Assembly (NCBI RefSeq): GCF_021568285.1
Contig: NZ_JAKGTQ010000004.1
Location: 124,001-188,000, forward strand
DNA: 64,000 nucleotides
Direction of reading: 5' to 3'
DNA from: Rheinheimera sp. UJ63
Lineage (GTDB): Bacteria > Pseudomonadota > Gammaproteobacteria > Enterobacterales > Alteromonadaceae
Under the pieces are notes generated by a model. It made no database searches. It was not told the origin of the DNA and was given only the letters and a program-made list of their open reading frames with translations. The position numbers were made by a program, and so were the translations under genes. This document shows positions 29,977 to 42,493 of the stretch, one piece after another. How positions within the stretch are numbered: the first letter of the stretch is position 1; the number at the start of each line of letters is the position of its first letter.

Positions 29977-30003
29977 CAAAAGGTCAGCAAGCTGACCTTT
30001 TTG
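29977..30003. terminator. Bidirectional terminator between the GGDEF gene and luxS
   Basis: AGGTCAGC (29981-29988) and GCTGACCT (29991-29998) pair around a 2-nt loop, flanked by A-run and T-run. It serves both converging genes. Confidence 0.85.
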
Positions 30004-30015
30004 TGAGCGATACCC

Positions 30016-30525
30016 TTATAACTTGCTGAGTACTTCAGCCGGTAACGCCAATTCATCATTACGGTTCACACCGACACCGCGAGTTAAAATGTTTTGTGCG
30101 ATTTGCTTGGCTTCTTCTAATGAATGCATTTGTGCGGTGCCACACTGATAGATATTCAGCTCAGGAATATCCTGTTGGCTTGCAACCTGTAACACATCTG
30201 TCATGGCGGCTTGCCAAGCTTGGCCAACACGTTGCTCATCAGGCGTACCAATTAAGCTCATGTAAAAACCAGTGCGGCAGCCCATTGGCGAGATATCAAT
30301 AATTTCAACGTCAGCACTGTTTAGGTGATCCCGCATAAAACCGGCAAATAAGTGCTCTAAAGTGTGAATACCTTTCTCAGATAAGATCTCTTCGTTCGGT
30401 ACACAAAAACGTAAATCATAAACGGTGATCGCATCACCCTTAGGCGTGTTCATCTTCTTCGCAACCCGAACGGCAGGCGCTCGCATAATGGTATGGTCTA
30501 CGGTAAAGCTATCAAGTAATGGCAT
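30016..30525 (-). CDS. luxS: S-ribosylhomocysteine lyase LuxS
   Basis: 169 residues, normal length. The metal site is visible: His54, Glu57 and His58 in [10 protein letters not shown], and Cys128 in [14 protein letters not shown]. Catalytic Cys83 is in MGCRTGFYM. It splits S-ribosylhomocysteine into homocysteine and DPD, the AI-2 precursor, in the activated methyl cycle. No AI-2 receptor or lsr genes are nearby, so a recycling role is as likely as signalling. Confidence 0.97.
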
Positions 30526-30658
30526 AGCGGATCCTATTTAGAAAAAAAGTGTTGGTCGATTATAGCCCTGAGCGGTGGCTTAAGTTAACCGCTTTTCAAC
30601 AAAAGCCGCGTTAAAGTCATTTAACTTAGACAAAATCAAAAAAAATCACGTTGATAAC

Positions 30659-30688
30659 CTTGAATAGATCAGGGCTAATCCCCACTAA
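30659..30688 (+). promoter_or_regulatory. Sigma-32 promoter of dnaK
   Basis: CTTGAAT (30659-30665), a 14-bp spacer and CCCCACTA starting at 30680 match the heat-shock consensus. It lies about 50 bp upstream of the dnaK start. No CIRCE repeat is present in the 212-bp luxS-dnaK spacer. Confidence 0.85.
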
Positions 30689-30737
30689 TTTACCATCGCA
30701 ACGATACATTGTTCAGAATATTAGGTGGAGAGAAATT

Positions 30738-32645
30738 ATGGGTAGAATTATTGGTATTGACTTGGGTACAACCAACTCTTGTGTGGCTATTTTAGATGGC
30801 GATAAGCCAAGAGTATTAGAGAATGCTGAAGGCGCTCGTACTACGCCATCCATCATTGCTTATGCAGAAGATGGTGAAGTTTTAGTAGGGCAACCAGCAA
30901 AACGTCAAGCGGTGACCAACCCTAAAAATACTCTGTATGCAATCAAGCGTTTAATTGGCCGTCGTTTTGAAGACGAAGAAGTACAACGCGACATCAAAAT
31001 CATGCCGTTCAAAATTGTTAAAGCAGACAATGGTGACGCTTGGGTTGAAGTAAAAGACCGAAAATTAGCTGCGCCACAAATTTCAGCTGAAATCTTGAAA
31101 AAAATGAAGAAAACCGCTGAAGACTATCTTGGTGAAGCGGTTACTGCCGCAGTCATTACGGTTCCAGCTTACTTCAACGATGCGCAGCGCCAAGCGACGA
31201 AAGATGCTGGCCGTATCGCAGGTTTAGACGTTAAACGTATTATCAACGAACCGACAGCCGCGGCATTAGCCTACGGTATGGATAAAAAGAAAGGCGACAC
31301 CAAAGTTGCAGTATATGACTTAGGTGGCGGTACTTTCGATATCTCTATTATTGAAATTGATGATGTGGATGGCGAGCAAACGTTCGAAGTATTAGCGACC
31401 AACGGTGATACTCACTTAGGTGGTGAAGACTTTGATAACCGCGTAATTAACTACTTAGTTGAAGAGTTTAAGAAAGAGCAAGGCATGGATTTACGTAATG
31501 ATCCTTTAGCCATGCAACGTTTAAAAGAAGCAGCAGAAAAAGCTAAGATTGAGCTGTCATCTGCTTCACAAACTGAAGTTAACTTACCGTACATCACCGC
31601 AGATGCCTCAGGTCCAAAACACCTGAACATCAAAGTGACTCGCGCTAAATTAGAATCTTTGGTTGAAGATTTAGTACAACGCACCTTAGAGCCATTGAAA
31701 AAGGCGCTTGCTGATGCCGATTTAAGCGTCAGCGAAATCAACGAGATTATTCTGGTTGGTGGTCAAACGCGTATGCCGAAAGTACAAGAAGCCGTTACCG
31801 CTTTCTTCGGTAAAGAGCCTCGTAAAGACGTTAACCCAGATGAAGCCGTTGCGGTTGGTGCGGCCATTCAAGGTGCGGTGCTGTCAGGTGATGTTAAAGA
31901 CGTTTTATTACTGGATGTTACCCCGTTATCACTAGGTATCGAAACCATGGGTAGCGTGATGACAGCTCTGATTGAGAAAAACACCACTATCCCGACGAAA
32001 AAGTCGCAAGTGTTCTCAACGGCGGATGATAACCAATCTGCGGTGACGATCCACGTCATTCAGGGTGAGCGTAAGCGCGCTTCAGATAATAAATCTCTGG
32101 GGCAATTTAACTTAGAAGGTATTCGCCCAGGTCGTCGTGGCGAGCCACAAATTGAAGTAACTTTCGATTTAGATGCGGACGGTATTTTACACGTGTCGGC
32201 GAAAGACAAAGACACCGGTAAAGAGCAAAAGATCACCATCAAAGCTTCTTCAGGTTTAAGTGAGGAAGAAATCGATAAAATGGTGCGTGATGCCGAAGCG
32301 AATGCTGAAGAAGATAAAAAGTTCGAAGAAATGGTGCAGGCACGTAACCAAGCCGATGCTATGGTACACTCTACCCGCAAACAGCTGGAAGAAGCCGGTT
32401 CTGCGTTAGCTGCCAATGATAAAGAAGCTATCGAGAACGCGATTACCGATCTGGAAAAAGCGATGAAAGGCAGCGATAAAGCTGACATCGAAGCGAAAAC
32501 CCAGGCCTTGTTACAAGCTTCGCAAAAACTGATGGAAGCAGCACAAGCTAAAGGTCAGCAGGGTGGTGAAGAAACCGCTCAGCAGTCTGGTGGCGATGAT
32601 GTTGTTGACGCTGAATTTGAAGAAGTTAAAGACGACAAGAAGTAA
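30738..32645 (+). CDS. dnaK: Hsp70 chaperone DnaK
   Basis: 635 residues from ATG 30738 (AGGTGGAG upstream); the longer frame runs through the promoter and is not coding. The ATPase domain has [26 protein letters not shown] and [13 protein letters not shown]. The interdomain linker [18 protein letters not shown], the substrate domain and a helical lid follow, ending in EEVKDDKK. It works with DnaJ (next gene) and GrpE (16494) in folding and in control of sigma-32. Confidence 0.98.
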
Positions 32646-32659
32646 TTATCACCCATATC

Positions 32660-32687
32660 GGGCTGCAGCATAATCTGTAGCCCTTTT
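32660..32687 (+). terminator. Hairpin between dnaK and dnaJ
   Basis: GGGCTGCAG (32660-32668) and CTGTAGCCC (32675-32683) form a 9-bp stem with one G-U pair and a 6-nt loop, followed by TTTT. It is weak enough for readthrough and would lower dnaJ relative to dnaK. Confidence 0.65.
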
Positions 32688-32709
32688 ACTGAGAATTAAG
32701 CACAGATCT

Positions 32710-33840
32710 ATGTCCAAGCGTGACTATTATGAAGTATTAGGTGTCGCTAAAGGCGCCGATGATAAAGAGATCAAAAAGGCTTATAAACGCCTCGCCATGA
32801 AATTTCACCCCGATCGCACACAGGGTGATAAAGCCATGGAAGAGAAGTTTAAAGAAGTGCAAGAAGCCTATGAGATTTTGTCTGACGACCAGAAAAAAGC
32901 CGCCTATGATCGCTTCGGCCATGCCGGGGTAGATCCGAATCGTGGTGCGGGTGGTGGCGGTAATGCTGACTTTGGTGATATTTTCGGCGACGTGTTCGGC
33001 GATATCTTCGGAGGCGGTGGCCGTCGCGGTCAATCACGGGCACAGCGCGGCTCAGATCTTCGTTATAACTTAGAACTGACATTAGAAGAAGCCGTTAAAG
33101 GTAAATCAGTCGACATTAAAGTGCCGACAATGGTCGGTTGTGATAGTTGTGATGGTTCAGGTGCTAAAAAAGGCACTTCAGCCAAGAGCTGCCCAACCTG
33201 TCATGGTGCTGGCCAAGTGACGATGCGCCAAGGCTTTTTCGCGGTACAACAAACCTGTCCTACTTGTAGTGGGCGTGGCAAGATTATTCCTGATCCTTGC
33301 AGCAAGTGTCATGGTGAAGGCCGCATCGAAAAAACCAAAACGCTGGCAGTTAAAATCCCTGCGGGTGTGGATACCGGTGACCGTATTCGTTTAACCGGCG
33401 AAGGCGAAGCAGGTATGCATGGCGCTCCGGCGGGTGATTTGTATGTGCAGGTTAGCGTTAAGCAACACGCTATTTTCCAGCGTGATGGTAACAACCTGTA
33501 TTGCGATGTGCCGTTAAGCTTTGCGACCGCAGCTTTAGGTGGTGAAATTGATGTGCCAACCCTAGATGGCCGGGTTAAATTAAAGATCCCAGCCGAAACA
33601 CAAACTGAGAAAATGTTCCGCCTACGTGGCAAGGGCGTGCAATCAGTGCGTGGTGGTGGTGTCGGTGATTTAGTGTGTAAAGTGGTGATCGAAACGCCAG
33701 TGAATTTATCTGAGCGGCAAAAAGAGCTACTAAGACAACTGGACGATAGCATGGCTGGCGACAGTGAAGCCAAGCATCGGCCGAAGTCAAAAGGGTTCTT
33801 CGATGGTGTGAAGAAGTTTTTTGATGATTTAACTAACTAA
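32710..33840 (+). CDS. dnaJ: Hsp40 co-chaperone DnaJ
   Basis: 376 residues, type I layout. The J domain has the HPD motif in KFHPDRTQG; the Gly/Phe linker (about 75-110) contains [16 protein letters not shown]. Four CxxCxGxG zinc repeats follow (about 140-205: [32 protein letters not shown]), then the C-terminal substrate domains. It stimulates DnaK ATPase. It is in an operon with dnaK across a 64-bp spacer with an attenuating hairpin. Confidence 0.98.
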
Positions 33841-33854
33841 TCTAATTAGTAAAA

Positions 33855-33886
33855 AAATAAACCACCCATAATCGGGTGGTTTTTTT
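33855..33886. terminator. Terminator after dnaJ
   Basis: ACCACCC (33861-33867) and GGGTGGT (33874-33880) form a 7-bp stem with T6 following at 33881-33886 and an A-run before it. Confidence 0.88.
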
Positions 33887-33942
33887 ATGCCAGCAGAGTA
33901 AACTGGTCAAATGTGTTCGATGAGTTTGCAAAAGGATTTAAG

Positions 33943-34755
33943 ATGATAAAGAAATTATTGGTGTCAGCCATTTGTACCGTGTTACTGGTGGCCTGTGCTG
34001 AGTCACCGACCGGACGTCGTCAAGTGATGTTGTACGATAACCAGCAATTAAGCACCATGGGTGCACAAACCTTCGAAGAAATGAAAGCCGCTGAAAAAAT
34101 CAGCAACGATGCTGAAATTAATCGCTACGTGTTATGTGTCAGCAATGCCTTACTGAAAGTGACCCCTGATGAATATCAGCAACAAAGCTGGGAAATTGTG
34201 GTTTTTGATAGCGAGCAAGTGAATGCCTTTGCATTACCTGGAGGCAAAATTGGTGTTTATACCGGCTTGTTAAAAGTGGCAGAAACACCAGCACAATTAG
34301 CTGCCGTAGTAGGGCATGAAATTGCACACGTGATGGCGGGCCACAGCAATGAGCGGCTCTCTACCAATCAATTCTTACAAATGGCCCTAGCCCTAGGCGA
34401 TGCCGGCTCTAAAGCCTACGGCGTGCAATATCAGCAAGAATTAATGGCGGCCTTAGGTGTCGGTGCGCAATTAGGCGTAGCTTTACCGTTTAGCCGGGCC
34501 CATGAAACAGAATCTGATATAATTGGCCTTGAATTAATGGCAAAAGCGGGTTTTGACCCAAGCGAAGCGGTTAACTTATGGCGTAATATGGCGAAGGCCA
34601 GTGGCCCTGCTGGCCCACAATTCTTATCGAGCCACCCTGTACCCGAAACCAGGATTACGACCTTACAAGACATGATGCCTGAGGCGAATGGTTTTTATAC
34701 ACAGCGCAAAGCAGCTGGCAATTTGCCAAGTTGCCGCAAACCGGCTAAATTATAG
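33943..34755 (+). CDS. M48-family zinc metallopeptidase lipoprotein
   Basis: 270 residues from ATG 33943, with AAGGA seven bases upstream. Lipobox LLVAC gives an acylated Cys18, so it is anchored in the periplasm. The zinc site HEIAH is at 125-129, with the third ligand in the downstream HETESDIIGLELM, and NAFALPGGKIGVYTGLL precedes the active site as in other M48 proteins. It is closest in layout to LoiP/YcaL-type outer-membrane quality-control proteases. It follows dnaKJ but sits behind their terminator, so it has its own promoter. Confidence 0.88.
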   Translation: MIKKLLVSAICTVLLVACAESPTGRRQVMLYDNQQLSTMGAQTFEEMKAAEKISNDAEINRYVLCVSNALLKVTPDEYQQQSWEIVVFDSEQVNAFALPGGKIGVYTGLLKVAETPAQLAAVVGHEIAHVMAGHSNERLSTNQFLQMALALGDAGSKAYGVQYQQELMAALGVGAQLGVALPFSRAHETESDIIGLELMAKAGFDPSEAVNLWRNMAKASGPAGPQFLSSHPVPETRITTLQDMMPEANGFYTQRKAAGNLPSCRKPAKL

Positions 34756-34921
34756 GTAAGCTATTGTAATTAAATAACGTCAGCTTTTTTTACACTAACC
34801 TAATAGTACTGATATCGGGTTTAAAATAACCCCATAGAAATCAGAGATCTGTATTTTTGGTGTGTAAATTGCATGTTTAATTGTAAGCTCACAGAATTCA
34901 ACTTGTTGTAGGAAGGTTTAT

Positions 34922-35584
34922 ATGCAAGGAAATAACCCGAAAGACCAACACGACGCTAAAGTAAGTCGTCGTAAGTTTTTGACCAAAGTCGGCACTGGTG
35001 TCGTGATTTCTGCATTGCCTGCTAAGTCAGTTTGGGGAGCTTGTTCTGTTTCAGGAGCATTGTCTGGTAATTTATCGCACAATACTAATAATGACCACTG
35101 TATAGTTCCAACGCTAACGAATGGACGTTCTCCAGGCGGTTGGTCAAATATTAGCAGTAATAATATTAATTCTTTTTTCATTGAACTAGACCGGATTAAA
35201 TCTTCTTATGGCAATAAATCAAATGAGTTTAATAATGCGGTAAAAAAATATTTAGATTTCGTTAATACTGTTAAAAATCATACATTACCTGTACCTAAAG
35301 AACTTACTACTAGAAATTATACTATTAAAAGTGGGCTGTCTTCTAACGGCTCAGGTGATAATAATATTTTTTATCATTTGTCTGCCGTCTACCTTAATGC
35401 TTATTTTGGTTTTTATAAAGGTTACCTCGGAAAACAATCTGCAGATGAGTTAGTAAATACTATATTTATGGTCTGGTATATTCAGCTAAGTAATACTAAC
35501 ACGAGAAGTCGTAGCTCAGTAAACTTTAGTGATACAGTTCTGGGTTATAATGATGGTAGTACTGATTGGAAACTACCTATCTAA
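34922..35584 (+). CDS. Tat-exported protein of unknown function (first gene of HPr-rel-A operon)
   Basis: 220 residues. A twin-arginine signal, SRRKFLTKVGTGVV at 15-28, ends near SVWGA (40); a Cys directly follows, but the preceding residues are not a good lipobox. The mature part is rich in Ser, Asn and Tyr, with a helical middle (FFIELDRIKSSYGN) and a second hydrophobic stretch (YLNAYFGFYKGYLG). I recognise no domain. GGAAGG precedes the ATG. It is more AT-rich than its neighbours and heads a tight operon with a PqqD-like protein, an HprK-related kinase and a nucleotidyltransferase, so it is the natural candidate substrate of those enzymes. That link is inference from gene order. Confidence 0.7.
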   Translation: MQGNNPKDQHDAKVSRRKFLTKVGTGVVISALPAKSVWGACSVSGALSGNLSHNTNNDHCIVPTLTNGRSPGGWSNISSNNINSFFIELDRIKSSYGNKSNEFNNAVKKYLDFVNTVKNHTLPVPKELTTRNYTIKSGLSSNGSGDNNIFYHLSAVYLNAYFGFYKGYLGKQSADELVNTIFMVWYIQLSNTNTRSRSSVNFSDTVLGYNDGSTDWKLPI

Positions 35585-35598
35585 TTAATAAATTTTAA

Positions 35599-35865
35599 AT
35601 GACAAACTACTGTTTTAATATGAATGCTGAGCTTTTAGCCTTAACTGATGGCAGTGGTTTGGTAATTTATAACCTATATTCTGGCAACACATTATTTTTG
35701 CGTTCTAATTCATTCAGCTTCAATAATTTAATCGAGCTTACTCAATCACCCAAGTTTAATAAGGTCGTACTATGTCGTCTAATAGCAGTAGATGAATCTG
35801 AAGCTCAGCAAATGTTAGGCTATTTGCTTAATAATAATTTGATATCCATAGCTAGTGAGATGTGA
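35599..35865 (+). CDS. PqqD-family peptide chaperone, HPr-rel-A system
   Basis: 88 residues, a single small winged-helix-like domain resembling PqqD and RiPP recognition elements. It opens with a strand pair (LLALTDGSGLVIYNLYSGNT) and ends with a helical segment (EAQQMLGYLLNNNLI). PqqD-like proteins bind a leader or recognition peptide and present it to a modifying enzyme. It lies 14 bp after the Tat-protein gene and directly abuts the kinase gene (stop TGA, then ATG with no gap), so it should be coupled to it. This combination matches what databases call the HPr-rel-A system; its client is unknown. Confidence 0.75.
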   Translation: MTNYCFNMNAELLALTDGSGLVIYNLYSGNTLFLRSNSFSFNNLIELTQSPKFNKVVLCRLIAVDESEAQQMLGYLLNNNLISIASEM

Positions 35866-36711
35866 ATGCTGATTAATTGTGGTCAATATAGTTTCGACCT
35901 AGCCACATCTCTTCCATTAATACAGAAAAGCGCCAACTTAATTTATGGTGATGCGCCGGTATCTGGTGTTATTTCAGATTTTAATCTTTCTTTAAACGCT
36001 AGCTCTTTGCTACGGCGATTTGTAAAGCCGCAAGTAAGTTTTCTTTGTGACCAACATTCACCTTTTAAACCTTTACCATTAAACCAAGGTTATGCTTTAT
36101 TAGAGTGGGGTATGAATTGGTGTATTGCTGCGCATGAATATACTCGATTCTTAATACATTCCGCAGTTTTAGTAAAAAATGACAAAGCTATTCTATGCCC
36201 CGCTTCTCCGGGGTCAGGTAAAAGCACTTTGAGTGCTTATCTTGGTCTAAGTGGTTGGTATGTTTACAGCGATGAAATGGCGATTATTGATATGGATGAG
36301 CAACGTGTCCTTCCGATGTTTCGACCGGTTTGTTTAAAAAATGAAAGTATTTCGTTGCTGCAAAGTTGGCATCCAAGCGCAACAGTTACGCCTGTTTGCC
36401 GTGACACCCAAAAAGGTGATGTGGCTCACGTAAAGGTTCTTTCTTGGTCTCAATATCAACAATTACGACCTGCTCCCATTGCTGGGTTAGTTTTTCCAAG
36501 ATATAAAGTAGGTTCAGATCTGAAAATTTATCAGCTTGACCAATTAGATTCCTTTAATCAATTGAGTCACAATGCTTTTAATTATAATGTTTTAGGTAAA
36601 TCTGCTTTTAAAGCAGCTGCACAAATAGTTGGCAATGCAAAATCATTTGAAGTTGAGTATAGCAAATTGACTGATTTAGCGTTATTTTTTGATGAGTTGG
36701 TCCAAGATTAA
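35866..36711 (+). CDS. HprK-related kinase A
   Basis: 281 residues. The C-terminal half has an HPr-kinase-like fold: LIHSAVLV (about 96-103), P-loop SPGSGKST (114-121), and YSDEMAI (134-140), which supplies the acidic metal-binding residues. The N-terminal 90 residues are not HprK-like. True HPr kinases also carry a C-terminal signature for PTS HPr binding, which I do not see, and no PTS genes are near. Related kinases in lasso-peptide clusters phosphorylate a Ser of the precursor. Here the likely target is the Tat protein or another client presented by the PqqD-like protein. It overlaps the next gene by one base (TAATG). Confidence 0.8.
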   Translation: MLINCGQYSFDLATSLPLIQKSANLIYGDAPVSGVISDFNLSLNASSLLRRFVKPQVSFLCDQHSPFKPLPLNQGYALLEWGMNWCIAAHEYTRFLIHSAVLVKNDKAILCPASPGSGKSTLSAYLGLSGWYVYSDEMAIIDMDEQRVLPMFRPVCLKNESISLLQSWHPSATVTPVCRDTQKGDVAHVKVLSWSQYQQLRPAPIAGLVFPRYKVGSDLKIYQLDQLDSFNQLSHNAFNYNVLGKSAFKAAAQIVGNAKSFEVEYSKLTDLALFFDELVQD

Positions 36712-37808
36712 TGTCTATTGCCCCAAAACAAATTCTACACTATCTCGCGCAGCCAGAACGATGTACATTGATATCTTTAGTGCAGTGGCAACAACTAATA
36801 TGGCTATTTCGTGAAGCCAAGCTTTTGTCCTCGCTTGCGGCAGTTCTTGAACGTAGAGCGTTGTTATGTTCTTTACCAGTTTATGCGCAACGTCATTTAC
36901 AGTCTGCGTTAGTATATGCCGATAGACAGGCACAACAAATTCGTTTTGAATGTGATGAGTTACAGACTATATTCCTGAACACGGATATTAAAGTTTTATA
37001 TCTTAAAGGTGCGGCTTACACTTTAGCTGATACTGAGAATAGCAGAGGTCGAATTTGCAATGATATCGACGTGCTTGTAAATAAATCACAGCTTGCAGCG
37101 GCCGAGGCTTTATTAAAAAGAAATTATTGGAAATCAGATAAGCTTTCTTCACATGACGAGCGTTATTATCGTGAATGGAGCCATGAAATCCCACCAATGG
37201 TTCATATTCTAAGAGGGACCGTACTCGATCTGCATCATAATTTGTATTTGCCGATTAGTGGCCGTTCGGCAGATATGGCTAAGTTTTTTGAGTTAGTAAA
37301 AACGACGAATTCTGGCGCCTTAGTGCTCAATCAAGAAGCAATGGTACTTCATAGTATCATTCATCTTTTCATGAACGAAGAAACGCAAAGCGCAATGCGT
37401 GATTTATGGGATATTCACTTACTGACGGCGCAATATAGTACCGCAGATTTTTGGAATAATTTACATAACCTTGCACTCTCAACGGGGTTTGAGCTTGAGT
37501 TTAGGTACTGTTTAACCGCATTAAAGTATTATCTTGGTTCGGCTCTGGACCCTTTAACAAAAAATCAATGTGAGCAATATTTCGAAGATAACTGGTGGGT
37601 CCGTAAGGTGTTGTTACCGGCTCTATTACCTGATCACCCTTTAGTTATAGGCTGGCAGCAACGTTGGGCCAAACGTTTTATGTATTTTCGCGGCCACTTT
37701 TTAAAAATGCCATTGCATATTTTGCTCGGGCATTTAACGATGAAAAGCTTTTTCGGGCTTAGAGATGCCATTTTTGGTAAGCATCAATTTAGCCCGAAAA
37801 AAAATTAG
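36711..37808 (+). CDS. Nucleotidyltransferase (PF14907-like), HPr-rel-A system
   Basis: 365 residues. The catalytic region has VLYLKGAAYTLAD (about 95-107) and GRICNDIDVLV (113-123), where Asp118 and Asp120 form the metal-binding D-x-D of the nucleotidyltransferase fold. Later HDERYYREWSHEIPP and LDLHHNL are also typical of the uncharacterised family PF14907. The C-terminus is helical and basic. It starts on the stop codon of the kinase gene and ends with a 4-bp overlap of the convergent antiporter gene. Together with the kinase it could transfer a nucleotide or phospho-sugar to a phosphorylated client; the actual reaction is unknown. Confidence 0.8.
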   Translation: MSIAPKQILHYLAQPERCTLISLVQWQQLIWLFREAKLLSSLAAVLERRALLCSLPVYAQRHLQSALVYADRQAQQIRFECDELQTIFLNTDIKVLYLKGAAYTLADTENSRGRICNDIDVLVNKSQLAAAEALLKRNYWKSDKLSSHDERYYREWSHEIPPMVHILRGTVLDLHHNLYLPISGRSADMAKFFELVKTTNSGALVLNQEAMVLHSIIHLFMNEETQSAMRDLWDIHLLTAQYSTADFWNNLHNLALSTGFELEFRYCLTALKYYLGSALDPLTKNQCEQYFEDNWWVRKVLLPALLPDHPLVIGWQQRWAKRFMYFRGHFLKMPLHILLGHLTMKSFFGLRDAIFGKHQFSPKKN

Positions 37809-39121
37809 GCACTTTGTGCCGGGCGACGCAGCACTATTACACCCAGTGCTACGATGAAAAGTAACATACAGTAGTAATTATAAGTAATGACCTGCCACGG
37901 TGAAATGCCAAAGCTCGCGCCTAACAGCAACGCCTGCGCACCATAGGGTACCAAGCCCTGACTGATACAAGCAAAGATGTCCAATAAGCTCGCGCTGCGT
38001 TTCGGGGTGATTTGGTGTTGCTTTGCTAAATTGCGGCTCACATCACCCGTTAATACGATCGCCACTGTGTTGTTGGCAATACACAGGTTACTGATAAAGG
38101 CTAAAGCGGCGATGGCCAATTGCTGAGCTTTGTTACCGGCCAGTTTAATACTTGAGGTTAACTTCTGTATTTGTGATGAAATCCACTGTAAGCCACCTTG
38201 TTGTTTGATGAACTCACTCAGCGCACTAACTAACATCGCCAGCAAGAAAATCTCCTGCACGTTGGCAAAGCCGGTAGCAATATCGGTACCTAAACCGCTG
38301 ATCGCGTAATCTGCAAAAATACTGCCTTGCAAAGCAGCCAGTAAAATACCCAGCAGTAGCACCACAAACACATTCAGCCCCATTACGGCTAAAAATAAGA
38401 TGGCGGCATAGGGCAGCACGCCAGTCCAATTAACCGTTTCGCTGACAATGGCTGTGGGTTCAGTGGTCATTAGGCTAAAAGCGATGAGGGTGAAAAACGC
38501 TGCTGGCAGAGCGATTTTAATGTTCTCTTTAAATTTGTCTGCCATCTTGGCACCTTGCGTGCGAGTTGCGGCAATGGTGGTGTCTGAGATAATCGACAGG
38601 TTATCGCCAAACATGGCGCCGCTGAGTAACACACCGGCTACCAAAGCCGGCTCTAAATCCGCTTGGTTGGCTAAGCCAACGGCAATTGGTGCTAAAGCGC
38701 CTATCGTGCCCATCGAAGTGCCCATCGCGGTGGAAACCAGTGCTGCAATAATAAATAAACCGGGCAATAAAAATTGTGCCGGGATCACACTGAGACCGGC
38801 ATTAACCACCGCATCAACCCCGCCAGTGGCTGTCGCCACACTAGCAAAAGCACCGGCAAGCAGATAGATTAAGCACATCGTAATAATATTATGATTACCC
38901 GCCCCCTTAACCATTACCTCTATTGATTGGGTTAACGGCGCGCGATGTAACCAAATGGCTAAAATTAACGCAGGGATAATGGCGACATGGCCAGGCAATT
39001 GATAGAACGCATAATCGACGTTTTGGCTTTGGAAATACAAGCCGCTACCGAGAAACAGCAGGATAAAAAACAGTAATGGCAGCAGCGAACGGCGCGCGCC
39101 AACAGTGGCAACAGTATTCAA
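37805..39121 (-). CDS. NhaC-family Na+/H+ antiporter-like transporter
   Basis: About 438 residues with roughly 11 to 12 membrane helices. NhaC/ArsB-like features include STAMGTSMGTIGALAPIA, SGAMFGDNLSIISDTTIAA and FISNLCIANNTVAIVLTG. The likely start is TTG 39121, with GAGG eight bases upstream; the ATG at 39202 gives 27 extra polar residues that do not fit a transporter N-terminus. It belongs to the inner-membrane ion transporter superfamily; the ion (Na+/H+, or an organic anion exchange) cannot be told from sequence. It is a single-gene unit. Confidence 0.82.
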   Translation of the reverse strand: MNTVATVGARRSLLPLLFFILLFLGSGLYFQSQNVDYAFYQLPGHVAIIPALILAIWLHRAPLTQSIEVMVKGAGNHNIITMCLIYLLAGAFASVATATGGVDAVVNAGLSVIPAQFLLPGLFIIAALVSTAMGTSMGTIGALAPIAVGLANQADLEPALVAGVLLSGAMFGDNLSIISDTTIAATRTQGAKMADKFKENIKIALPAAFFTLIAFSLMTTEPTAIVSETVNWTGVLPYAAILFLAVMGLNVFVVLLLGILLAALQGSIFADYAISGLGTDIATGFANVQEIFLLAMLVSALSEFIKQQGGLQWISSQIQKLTSSIKLAGNKAQQLAIAALAFISNLCIANNTVAIVLTGDVSRNLAKQHQITPKRSASLLDIFACISQGLVPYGAQALLLGASFGISPWQVITYNYYCMLLFIVALGVIVLRRPAQSA

Positions 39122-39334
39122 TTTAGCGACCTCATAAAATGGCTGCGCAATATATAGATGGCCAGACGTCTTGTCAATGCGGCCGCGTTGGCTGCAGGCC
39201 ATTTAGGTTGCAGCTATGTGCATTTGAGTTTACACCGCTAAGGTAAAGTATTCTTGATCATAAAACCAAGTATTTACCGCAAGCGATGCAGAATAAAAAA
39301 CTATTAAGGCTAGATTGTCTAGCTAGGAGCAGTG

Positions 39335-41206
39335 ATGGATCCGCAGCAAAAGCTATCATCTAAACGATTTATCCCCTTTTTCTTTACTCAAGCCTTGGGC
39401 GCGTTTAACGATAATGTATTTAAAAACGCCTTGATGCTGCTTCTCACCTTCGGCGCTGCCAGTGCCATGCCTTGGAGTGTTGATGTCAGTATGAACTTGG
39501 CTGCAGGCTTATTTATCTTACCTTTTTTATTGTTCTCTGCGACTGCCGGAACTTTGGCTGACAGTTTATGTAAAACACGGCTGATCCAGCGCTTAAAGCT
39601 GGTAGAAGTGGGGTTGATGTGTTTGGCGGCACTGGCCTTTATGTTTGAGCAATATGTGTATTTACTAGGTGTGCTGTTTTTAATGGGCGCGCAATCAGCA
39701 TTTTTTGGGCCAGTGAAATACGCCATATTGCCGCAGTTGTTAACGGACAAACAGTTACTCGGGGGGAATGCTTGGGTAGAAATGGGCACGTTTATTGCTA
39801 TTTTACTCGGTACTGTCGTCGGTGGTTTATTGGTGGGTATTAACAATGCGCATACCTGGATTGGCTTAATGGTGATTTGCTTTGCGCTTTCGGGTTATCT
39901 GGTGAGTTTGCAGATCCCTAAAGTGGGGGTAGTAGAAAATGCGCCTCACTTTCGTTTTGCGCCGTGGCAGCAAACCTTAGCAACGGTGCGAATTAGCTAT
40001 CAAAATCGCACTTTATATTTGGCGATTATGGCCATTAGTTGGTTTTGGTTTTTAGGTGCCAGCTATTTAACGCAATTTCCAAACTTTACCAAAACCGTTT
40101 TAGGAGGCGATAACACCGTCGTTACCGCATTACTGGTGGCGTTTTCTGTCGGTGTGGGTATAGGTTCTTTGTTGTGTGAGCGCTTGTCGGGTAAGCGTGT
40201 CGAACTGGGTATCGTACCCATTGGCTCTATCGGTTTAACGTGTTTTGGTATCAGTTTATATTTTAGTACCCCCGCAACAGTGTCATCTGAGCTATTAAGC
40301 TTACCGGCGTTTTTAAGCAGCAGTTTTGGCTGGTGGGTGTTACTCGATCTGAGTTTAATTGGGTTGTTTGGAGGGCTATTTATTGTGCCCTTGTATGCGT
40401 TATTACAGCAACGAGCTAATCCTACCGAGCGCGCCCGCATGATTGCCGCTAATAACATCTTTAATGCGCTGTTTATGGTGGTAAGTGCTATCGCCGGCAT
40501 TGTGTTCTTAACGGTATTTGAGCTAAGTATTCCGCAGTATTTTTTAATTCTAGCGCTGATGAACGCCGTGGTTGCCGGTTACGTTTATAGCCAAGTGCCG
40601 GAGTTTGCGCTGCGCTTTGTTATTTACTTATTAAGCCACACGCTGTATCGCGTTAAAGCAAGCGGTTTAGAGCATATCCCAACTGAGGGGCCTGTTGTCT
40701 TAGTCGCTAATCATGTGAGTTATGTTGATGCTCTTTTAATTGCGGGTGCGGTGCGCCGACCCGTTCGCTTTGTTATGGATCAGGGTATTTTTAAGATCCC
40801 CGTGGCCAATTTACTGTTTCGAGCAGCAAAAACCATTCCGATTTGCAGTAAGCATAAAGATGAAGCTGTGTATGAAGCTGCCTTTTCGGCGATTGCGCGC
40901 GAGTTAGCTGAAGGAAATGTTATTTGCATCTTCCCGGAAGGGCACTTAACCAAAGATGGTGAAATTGATCGGTTTCGCCCGGGTATTGAGCGAATTATTG
41001 CTGAGTCGGCTGTGCCTGTGGTGCCGATGGCGCTGCAAGGATTATGGGGGTCGTTCTTTAGTCACCATGGCAAAGGCGCATTTAAAATTAAAGGTCGTTT
41101 TTGGTCAAGGGTAAAGCTGCATGTCGGCCCCAGTATCGCAGCAGAACAGGTCAGTGCTGCCGAGTTAGAGCAGCAAGTCAGGCAGTTGCGAGGCGAGCAT
41201 CGCTAA
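39335..41206 (+). CDS. MFS lysophospholipid transporter-acyltransferase fusion (LplT-PlsC)
   Basis: 623 residues from ATG 39335 (AGGAG five bases upstream). Residues 1-415 are a 12-helix MFS transporter resembling LplT (TQALGAFNDNVFKNALMLLL at the start). From about 430 a PlsC acyltransferase domain follows with NHVSYVD (the HX4D motif, about 455) and FPEGHLTKDGE (about 534). In E. coli lplT and aas are separate genes, and Aas adds an AMP-binding domain that is absent here. The fusion should flip lysophospholipid inward and re-acylate it, probably with acyl-CoA or an acyl-ACP made elsewhere. Confidence 0.87.
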   Translation: MDPQQKLSSKRFIPFFFTQALGAFNDNVFKNALMLLLTFGAASAMPWSVDVSMNLAAGLFILPFLLFSATAGTLADSLCKTRLIQRLKLVEVGLMCLAALAFMFEQYVYLLGVLFLMGAQSAFFGPVKYAILPQLLTDKQLLGGNAWVEMGTFIAILLGTVVGGLLVGINNAHTWIGLMVICFALSGYLVSLQIPKVGVVENAPHFRFAPWQQTLATVRISYQNRTLYLAIMAISWFWFLGASYLTQFPNFTKTVLGGDNTVVTALLVAFSVGVGIGSLLCERLSGKRVELGIVPIGSIGLTCFGISLYFSTPATVSSELLSLPAFLSSSFGWWVLLDLSLIGLFGGLFIVPLYALLQQRANPTERARMIAANNIFNALFMVVSAIAGIVFLTVFELSIPQYFLILALMNAVVAGYVYSQVPEFALRFVIYLLSHTLYRVKASGLEHIPTEGPVVLVANHVSYVDALLIAGAVRRPVRFVMDQGIFKIPVANLLFRAAKTIPICSKHKDEAVYEAAFSAIARELAEGNVICIFPEGHLTKDGEIDRFRPGIERIIAESAVPVVPMALQGLWGSFFSHHGKGAFKIKGRFWSRVKLHVGPSIAAEQVSAAELEQQVRQLRGEHR

Positions 41207-41240
41207 TGACATTAAGGCCGAGTTTAAACAACATGTTCAT

Positions 41241-41261
41241 GCGCTAATAGCGCTCTTTTTT
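41241..41261 (+). terminator. Probable terminator after the MFS-acyltransferase gene
   Basis: GCGCT (41241-41245), loop AAT and AGCGC (41249-41253) are followed by TCTTTTTT. The stem is short. Confidence 0.5.
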
Positions 41262-41338
41262 GTACTAAACCTTGAATCTGTGCAGTAACGCTCGCATTAA
41301 GTTTACTGCACATCATCTTGGTATTAGCGGAGTTCAAC

Positions 41339-42493
41339 ATGTTTAATTTTTCTTATCAAAATAGTACTCGTATTCTTTTTGGCCAAGATCAGATAAAGCA
41401 ACTGGCAGAATTAATTACACCAGAGCAAAAAGTGTTGCTGTTGTATGGTGGCGGATCGATCAAAACCAATGGTGTTTATCAGCAGGTGACCGCAGCTTTG
41501 CAGGCGGCTGAGGTTATCGAATTCTCGGGTGTTGAGCCTAATCCTAATTTTGAAACGTTAATGCGCGCCACCGATATTGCGCGTCGTGAGAAAATAGACA
41601 TCATTCTAGCGGTGGGCGGGGGTAGCGTGATTGATGGCGCTAAATTTGTTGCAGCCGCCGCTTTATTTGAAGGTGATGCTTGGGATATTTTGGCAAAAGG
41701 CGCCAACGTTGAGCAAGCGCTGCCGATTGGTTGTGTTTTAACGTTACCGGCCACCGGTTCTGAAAGTAATGGTAATTCGGTCGTCACGCGTTATGAAACC
41801 AAACAAAAATTAGCGTTTTCCAGCCCATGGGTTTACCCACAGTTTGCCATTCTTGATCCCACCGTGACCTACAGTTTACCGCCGAAACAAGTGGCAAACG
41901 GTGTGGTCGATGCCTTTGTACATGTGATGGAGCAATATTTAACGTATCCGGTGAATGCGCCGGTGCAAGATCGTTTTGCAGAAGGGTTATTATTAACTTT
42001 AATTGCTGAAGGGCCCAAAGCCCTGTCTGATCCACAAAACTATGCTGTGCGCGCCAATGTCATGTGGGCCGCAACGATGGCGTTAAACGGTTTAATTGGC
42101 CAAGGTGTACCGCAAGATTGGGCAACGCATATGATAGGCCATGAAATTACTGCCTTGTTCGGCCTGGACCATGCACAAACCTTAGCCATAGTGTTACCGG
42201 CTTTAATGCAACAGCAACGCAGCCAAAAGCGCGAAAAGCTGTTGCAGTATGCAACGCGGGTTTGGCAGTTACAGCATCAAGATGAAGAGCGTTTAATTGA
42301 TGAAGCCATTAGTCATACGCGTTATTTTTTCGAGCGCATGGGGATACCGACGCGTTTAGCCGATTATGGCATACAAGCTGAAGCGATAGAGCAGTTAGTG
42401 AGCAAGTTAGTGCAGCACAACATGCTGGCATTAGGCGAACATCAAGATATTACACCCGAGGTGTCTCGCCGTATTCTGCAACTGGCGCTGTAA
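41339..42493 (+). CDS. yqhD: NADPH-dependent aldehyde reductase (YqhD-type iron-containing ADH)
   Basis: 384 residues from ATG 41339. It aligns through its whole length with E. coli YqhD as I remember it: STRILFGQDQI, LAVGGGSVIDGAKF, CVLTLPATGSESNG, QVANGVVDAFVH, VPQDWATHMIGHE, LDHAQTLAIVLPAL. The metal site uses Asp in VVDAF and the His residues in DAFVHVMEQ, MIGHE and LDHAQT. YqhD reduces a range of toxic aldehydes (glyoxal, acrolein, malondialdehyde) with NADPH. No yqhC-like regulator is next to it. It is followed by a weak hairpin and dapB. Confidence 0.93.
   Translation: MFNFSYQNSTRILFGQDQIKQLAELITPEQKVLLLYGGGSIKTNGVYQQVTAALQAAEVIEFSGVEPNPNFETLMRATDIARREKIDIILAVGGGSVIDGAKFVAAAALFEGDAWDILAKGANVEQALPIGCVLTLPATGSESNGNSVVTRYETKQKLAFSSPWVYPQFAILDPTVTYSLPPKQVANGVVDAFVHVMEQYLTYPVNAPVQDRFAEGLLLTLIAEGPKALSDPQNYAVRANVMWAATMALNGLIGQGVPQDWATHMIGHEITALFGLDHAQTLAIVLPALMQQQRSQKREKLLQYATRVWQLQHQDEERLIDEAISHTRYFFERMGIPTRLADYGIQAEAIEQLVSKLVQHNMLALGEHQDITPEVSRRILQLAL

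Follow-up and report, generated by a model that had tools for sequence, protein, structure and literature searches.

A four-gene operon that probably serves the maturation of an exported protein was found in a 64,000-nt stretch of Rheinheimera sp. UJ63 (contig NZ_JAKGTQ010000004.1, positions 124,001-188,000, forward strand; hereafter the window). It encodes a protein with a twin-arginine translocation (Tat) signal, a PqqD-like protein, an HprK-related kinase and an enzyme of nucleotidyltransferase (NTase) fold. From the comparative analysis, we favor a reading in which serines of the Tat precursor would be phosphorylated under the guidance of a recognition element (RRE) of the type known from ribosomally synthesized and post-translationally modified peptides (RiPPs), elaborated by the NTase and exported with the folded protein by Tat. 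Direct support comes from the partnership of the genes, their presence or absence as a unit, a conserved block of serines, the predicted RRE fold, the conserved active sites and a host TatC. The initial annotation of this DNA had proposed phosphorylation or nucleotidylation of the Tat protein guided by the PqqD-like protein; the genomic half of that idea is confirmed, and the chemical half stands as a strong and specific prediction.

The Tat protein is a constant partner of the kinase

The kinase gene (35866..36711, forward strand, 281 aa) encodes a member of TIGR04352 (HprK-related kinase A; 287.8 bits, cut-off 200), a family of the HPr-rel-A system. A set of 110 kinase loci was assembled from the best 30 matches in related whole genomes and 80 of 102 in named genome contigs, holding 104 distinct kinase sequences because six records were common to both sets. 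An iterated profile seeded with the Tat protein of the window (34922..35584, forward strand, 220 aa) found a homologue in 105 of these loci, directly upstream of the PqqD-like gene in most and after the NTase gene instead in 16, mostly from betaproteobacteria among the named ones; four of the 16 carry two copies (L055, L056, L061 and L082). One of the five loci missed by the profile (L079) has a Tat protein with the serine motif, found by reading, and in the other four (L015, L054, L086 and L088) the contig ends on the side where the Tat gene would be expected.

Among 98 related genomes, the kinase scored over the cut-off in 42, every one of which also carries the Tat family, and the 56 relatives without the kinase gave a single, partial Tat match, in G073, which covers the mature domain alone within a frame of 760 aa (Fisher p 5e-27, with relatedness ignored). 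Class-wide, 41 of 369 genomes have a kinase over the cut-off, with an adjacent Tat profile match in 36 (E <=0.001); by reading, four more (G309, G188, G398 and G112) have a Tat-signal protein in the corresponding position, though of different sequence, and in the remaining one (G354) the contig starts 640 bases before the kinase. Ten of the 328 class genomes without a kinase over the cut-off are likewise matched by the long Tat profile, through the mature domain only in four (G177, G181, G196 and G311) and through short Tat-signal open reading frames (ORFs) in six (G133, G198, G280, G380, G413 and G454). The recurrence of a Tat family beside the kinase, which the initial annotation had set as its test, is borne out by these counts, which also show that the four-gene arrangement is not due to chance. 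The kinase of G010 is listed twice with equal score, at C4:71-907 on a contig edge and at C5:363801-364637, probably as an assembly duplicate.

The four genes occur together or are missing together. The window copy adjoins genes for an M48 protease and an NhaC-like protein. Four genomes of the same genus (G007, G016, G023 and G025) have neither the kinase nor the Tat protein, and there the same two genes adjoin each other, with aligned ends 107-162 bases apart and therefore no room for any of the four operon genes. The kinase and the NTase of G001 lie between the same M48 and NhaC-like genes, tblastn being too weak to show the Tat and PqqD-like genes of that genome. The M48 protease was also considered as a part of the system and rejected, its gene being present where the operon is absent.

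Within the operon, the Tat gene is followed after 14 bp by the PqqD-like gene (35599..35865, forward strand, 88 aa), which abuts the kinase gene with a gap of 0 bp, and the kinase gene overlaps the NTase gene (36711..37808, forward strand, 365 aa) by 1 nt. The G+C fraction in 500-base windows is 0.31-0.41 inside the operon vs 0.40-0.51 in the flanks examined (30000-42000), in agreement with the AT-rich composition relative to the neighbors that had been described. Reading of the ORFs likewise upheld the reported gene arrangement, spacing, Tat motif, P-loop and D-x-D motif, and the profile matches upheld the identities of the kinase and the nucleotidyltransferase.

The serine block and the enzymes predicted to act on it

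The Tat protein of the window has a signal at about residues 1-39, with SRRKFLTK at residues 15-22 (twin arginine at 16-17), the c-region AKSVWG and a cleavage site placed by eye; both the S/T-R-R-x-F-L-K motif and the hydrophobic stretch are present. After the signal come a flexible tail with Ser44, Ser48 and Ser52 as well as Cys41 and Cys60, and a helical domain at about 61-220, which is mostly above 90 in confidence in the AlphaFold2 (AF2) model, where residues 1-60 are of low confidence. When Tat proteins of the HPr-rel-A type (rel-A Tat proteins) are aligned, 102 of 103 have the twin arginine in the same column and L099 has it one residue on; TatC is encoded in the host genome. The protein had been described as belonging to no known family, and no Pfam or NCBIfam family was reached over the cut-off. 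The helical domain gave no PDB fold match of note (best Z 3.3 in one comparison that re-aligned 46 chains) and weak PDB sequence matches throughout; this missing fold or family match is no proof of a new fold.

The conserved Ser/Thr/Tyr region that had been named as support if found in the kinase partner takes the form of a Ser-x3-Ser-x3-Ser block (35048..35077, forward strand, codons 43-52, VSGALSGNLS). Besides the start and the twin arginine, Cys41, Ser44, Ser48, Ser52, Cys60 and Gly68 are nearly invariant among 68 aligned members. Of 103 distinct proteins, 94 have the block directly after the predicted signal cleavage site, compared with 5 of 407 sequence windows taken elsewhere in these proteins and 6% of shuffled segments, and Ser-Ser pairs spaced 4 apart number 213 vs 66 expected. 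Its spacing is retained in subgroups without the flanking cysteines and the SG-x-x-SGN context (e.g. L039), and the block is found in 40 of 46 representatives when clustering used the domain alone, with the tail excluded. All eight further class-search loci carry it as well, a biased sample because they were among the ten best matches of a motif-containing profile. Ahead of the block, the c-region matches a loose motif around S-K-P-V-W-G in 92 of the 103 proteins.

The mature domain of the Tat protein (C-TPGYW ... GRHxVAALLNA) also occurs C-terminally in large, apparently secreted proteins (L178:226-1650, L180:133-2091 and L179 on the minus strand), with no Pfam model over the domain in the L178 or L180 proteins. 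The Tat gene of Catenovulum sediminis (L038:5057-5730) is broken across two frames beside an intact kinase, by sequencing error or decay.

The 88-aa protein of the window gave no family match of its own and did not reach TIGR04353 (cut-off 35). It was one of nine proteins tested against this model, two of which scored over the cut-off (51.3 and 44.7), the other six same-position orthologues falling below it. Its AF2 model (pLDDT 91) has four strands, three helices and, at the end, one more short strand, and shows the antiparallel sheet plus three helices of the PqqD-type fold. MINA53 was the first Foldseek row for this model, most of the next ten being RREs of RiPP systems (TbiB1, TfuB1, McbBCD and MccB); a VIA comparison placed the PbtF RRE first (Z 7.2), with PqqD among the matches, and TbiB1 was the best PDB sequence match of the family profile (E 0.0053). 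Because the fold matches combine with orthologues that reach TIGR04353, the protein is taken as a predicted RRE, so that its PqqD-like identity, as first annotated, rests on same-position orthologues, a common profile and the predicted fold. In five related loci (L186, L188, L190, L193 and L240), a single open frame is matched by both the RRE and the kinase profile, which supports delivery of the substrate from the RRE to the kinase.

Kinase and NTase keep their predicted catalytic residues. The kinase has the P-loop PASPGSGKST at 112-121, in a region resembling the HprK structures 1jb1 and 2qmh, and H98, the P-loop K119, D136 and E137 are invariant in 104 of 104 distinct orthologues; lasso-peptide kinases are described with a catalytic His-Lys-Asp-Asp (PMC9266682). 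A bona fide HPr(Ser) kinase/phosphorylase HprK was rejected as an identity, TIGR00679 not being among the four kinase matches up to E 1. The NTase matches PF14907 (NTP_transf_5; E 1.5e-40) and carries R114-x3-D118-I-D120. An ORF of at least 300 aa starting at most 130 nt from the kinase stop was found in 99 distinct cases among the 110 loci, assigned by position and alignment, and K99-G100, R114, D118 and D120 are kept in 96 to 98 of these 99.

According to these features, the following course is proposed. In the cytoplasm, the RRE would bind the 220-aa precursor at its N-terminal Tat signal and bring it to the HprK-like kinase, which could phosphorylate Ser44, Ser48 and Ser52 in the flexible segment past the signal peptide. 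The NTase-fold enzyme might then elaborate the phosphates with a hexose, as proposed for PsmN, or with a nucleotide, whereupon Tat would export the folded and modified protein and the signal would be removed. In the periplasm or on the cell surface, the product would then carry a short N-terminal tail of modified serines ahead of its helical domain.

Conservation of the DxD and K-G motifs in at least 96 of 99 orthologues could also be explained by an NTP_transf_5 enzyme that nucleotidylates (e.g. AMPylates) serines or phosphoserines with no sugar involved. A review has left nucleotidylation possible for pseudomycoidin (PMC9266682), and deletion of LppN from the pathway of linear polyphosphorylated peptides (LPP) caused no detectable change in the LPP host (PMC13381572). 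Nevertheless, a hexosyl-phosphate is the one product described for a similar enzyme in the literature consulted (PMC9266682), and we regard this alternative as quite unlikely. By analogy with PsmN and pseudomycoidin, plain nucleotidylation would be no more likely than a sugar on the phosphate.

Several observations weigh against the proposed maturation of the Tat precursor. The RRE-binding motif of lasso and LPP leaders, [YW]xxPx, is found in none of the 103 rel-A Tat proteins, that of the window included, and the kinase family of the window, whose sequence similarity to solved HprK structures is weak (E 0.023), has Glu where lasso kinases have their second catalytic Asp. The exact serine pattern is missing in nine of the 103 distinct proteins, three of which fit with Thr, and the counts for this pattern are not independent, because the sequences are related. 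Taken by itself, the fold evidence for the RRE is modest, with no Foldseek E <0.001 and VIA Z <=7.2; ribosomal-oxygenase winged helices and GdmN score like RREs in the fold comparison, and by sequence the MarR-type repressor AdcR (E 0.0069) comes close behind TbiB1. Furthermore, some members of the genus have a PqqD-like ORF of 56-85 aa with little or no profile score. Such short ORFs stand just upstream of the kinase in L013, L016-L019, L022-L024 and L028-L030, and they may represent an RRE that is reduced or in decay while the kinase is intact.

Relation to known tailoring systems

The operon is of the RRE/HprK/NTase tailoring kind and is distinct from the LPP and lasso families. The LPP pathway, with the components LppA, LppB, LppK, LppN, LppS and LppD (Popov et al. 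2026, PMC13381572), resembles it, in the parts of the report consulted, in having a discrete RRE, an HprK-like kinase, an NTP transferase (LppN, likened by description) and a serine shortly past the leader; LppK polyphosphorylates Ser3 of the precursor core, just after the leader (PMC13381572). However, LPP has the SipW-like peptidase LppS and the MsbA-like exporter LppD, neither of which is among the four operon genes or the scanned M48 and NhaC-like neighbors, and its leader carries YxxP, whereas the rel-A leader is a Tat signal lacking it. The rel-A substrate also differs from that of LPP in being a protein that includes a folded domain and in having three conserved serines at intervals. 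An assignment as an LPP cluster was thus rejected, LppS, LppD and a YxxP leader being absent. LPP is said to be restricted to Bacillota, and the main text of that paper does not contain the words Tat, Proteobacteria, Pseudomonadota or TIGR04352 (PMC13381572).

Phosphorylated lasso peptides (paeninodin with PadeK/ThcoK, and pseudomycoidin with PsmK/PsmN) share the set of RRE (B1), HprK-like kinase and NTase, with serine-directed phosphorylation and then a hexose: PsmN, in the portion of the report consulted, adds a hexose to the phospho-Ser of pseudomycoidin, nucleotidylation not being excluded (PMC9266682). In contrast to the clusters so described, the window operon has no B2 protease, macrolactam cyclase or lasso precursor, its serines lie near the mature N terminus rather than the C terminus, and its catalytic pair is D-E rather than D-D. 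An assignment as a lasso-peptide cluster was rejected with no B2 leader peptidase or asparagine-synthetase-like cyclase found among the operon genes and scanned neighbors, in line with the initial annotation, which had noted the lack of cyclase and leader protease in the operon. A possible analogy is offered by redox enzyme maturation proteins (REMPs), small chaperones which, in the parts of the literature consulted, bind Tat signal peptides and keep a Tat precursor until it is matured (PMC3712460, PMC3316669). The predicted fold in the rel-A system is, by contrast, of the RiPP-chaperone type, with cofactor insertion not involved.

The grouping with HPr-rel-A (TIGR04352 and TIGR04353), made at the outset, holds by the score of the window kinase, while only some of the orthologous PqqD proteins reach TIGR04353. 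The adjacent nucleotidyltransferase is presumably a component of HPr-rel-A as well. No open-licence paper was found that names HPr-rel-A or pairs an HprK-related kinase with PqqD, nor one that links a Tat signal with a RiPP precursor or leader peptide, and among the open-licence matches listed no Tat-linked kinase system is described in titles or abstract openings.

HPr-rel-A, a database system without known function, gains from this a concrete substrate family and target residues, and its function therefore becomes testable by an expression experiment. If the proposal is true, the range of a tailoring kit previously known from small modified peptides would extend to exported proteins that are folded, and enzymes could be recruited by a Tat signal acting as leader. 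The operon would then be to Gram-negative bacteria what the LPP pathway is to Bacillota, possibly with a role at the cell surface.

Short Tat peptides and genomic surroundings

Beyond rel-A, 11 loci (L162-L165, L167, L188, L190, L194, L195, L198 and L240) combine an HprK-like kinase below the TIGR04352 cut-off and a short Tat peptide within one stretch, and most of them also have a PqqD-like gene or domain; L162-L165 and L167 are not an unbiased sample, because they were fetched for their Tat match. Thirteen peptides chosen from nine loci all keep S-R-R-x-F, Pro23 and Gly38-Ser39, and all but one, which has Phe, keep Tyr20. The Y-x-x-P-x-[hydrophobic] inside these Tat signals matches the RRE motif of lasso and LPP leaders, given in the consulted part of the LPP report as [Y/W]xxPx[L/V/I/A/F/Y] (PMC13381572), and Tyr and Ser lie 19 residues apart in the first short Tat peptide vs 18 in the LPP consensus of that part. 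A second set of 14 frames, mostly found with a profile favoring the Y-x-x-P motif, has a Tat-like twin arginine in 13; all 13, two of them identical copies, carry Y-x-x-P-x-hydrophobic (Met in L190), and 11, L188 and L190 excepted, have Gly-Ser a few residues past Ala-x-Ala. At the place of the Tyr, the rel-A Tat proteins have a hydrophobic residue in 35 of 103 cases, with P-x-hydrophobic nearby in 62.

These peptides raise the possibility of a wide class of systems in Pseudomonadota whose Tat signal is at the same time a leader of RiPP type. An RRE would read this signal, serines shortly beyond the cleavage site would receive phosphate-based groups from the HprK-like kinase and the NTase, and the product, whether a peptide or a folded protein, would leave by Tat; the RRE might delay export until tagging, as REMPs do for cofactors. 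We hold this broader view tentatively. Among 19 non-rel-A HprK-like loci picked by kinase score (L183-L201), the Tat-peptide profile matched in five, and three more (L183, L184 and L186) have a Tat-like protein by eye. Against such a class, the other 11 of the 19, whose ORF lists were read in part, have no Tat-peptide profile match, and ten stretches with a Tat-peptide match (L166, L168, L232-L237, L239 and L241; L239 without a Tat motif) show no kinase, RRE or NTase, some being cut by contig ends. The short Tat peptides without a kinase in L166, L168, L232-L237 and L241 are possible orphan substrates. Three tandem short Tat peptides lie between a PqqD-like gene and an HprK-like kinase at L162:2156-3385 on the minus strand. 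At L184:1871-4306, also on the minus strand, the HprK-like kinase domain is part of an 802-aa protein, and two RRG[TA]LKK-type proteins with long Thr-rich tails are encoded nearby on the opposite strand.

The short peptides also bear on an alternative in which the Tat protein is a precursor that a protease would cut after export, releasing a secreted peptide in the manner of RiPPs (the N-terminal segment with its modified serines, or a longer part), the domain being a mere carrier. Most peptides at the related HprK-like loci are below 110 aa and hold little beyond signal and tail, and a gene for a secreted trypsin/HtrA-like protease was found near 22 of 80 loci whose flanks, of varied length, were surveyed for context. 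On the other hand, the mature part of the rel-A proteins is a well-predicted domain of about 160 aa, shared with the large secreted proteins, no such protease gene was found in the other 58 loci, some of which have short flanks, and the M48 gene beside the window operon does not follow the presence of the operon. Release of a peptide is thus considered unlikely.

In the same survey, a PrsR-like gene was found in 17 of 80 loci, the case of L063 being doubtful (36% identity), a PrsK-like gene in 16 and an exosortase-associated acyltransferase in 14. The PrsR, PrsK and acyltransferase search seeds were over their NCBIfam cut-offs, and the protease seed had only below-cut-off HtrA-family matches. 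These genes, together with that of the protease, suggest that some members of the family have a role at the cell surface or in connection with exopolysaccharide, and LPP and paeninodin clusters often lie within capsule loci, according to the part of the LPP report consulted (PMC13381572).

Such XrtA/PEP-CTERM exopolysaccharide genes near part of the loci would also fit a reading in which the genes are linked by an envelope role alone, the serines being structural or used for attachment after export (e.g. surface anchoring by another enzyme) and the kinase acting on a small molecule or another protein. However, no genes of this kind occur in the examined stretch of most of the 80 loci or beside the window operon, whereas the kinase and the Tat protein co-occur, the operon comes and goes as a unit, and RRE and kinase share one frame in five relatives, so that we consider this explanation quite unlikely and keep to RRE-guided modification of the Tat precursor.

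Further neighbors of the window operon are what we take to be genes for DnaK, DnaJ and an acyltransferase. The same genome also has a lasso-type cluster at L182:2851-11447 (L182 being G000:C11:368000-386000), with an NTP_transf_5 protein, a lasso B2-like transglutaminase, an ABC transporter, PqqD, an HprK-like kinase, a sulfotransferase and a lasso-cyclase-like Asn synthase; with the window operon, one genome therefore holds both a lasso-type and a Tat-type set of tailoring enzymes.

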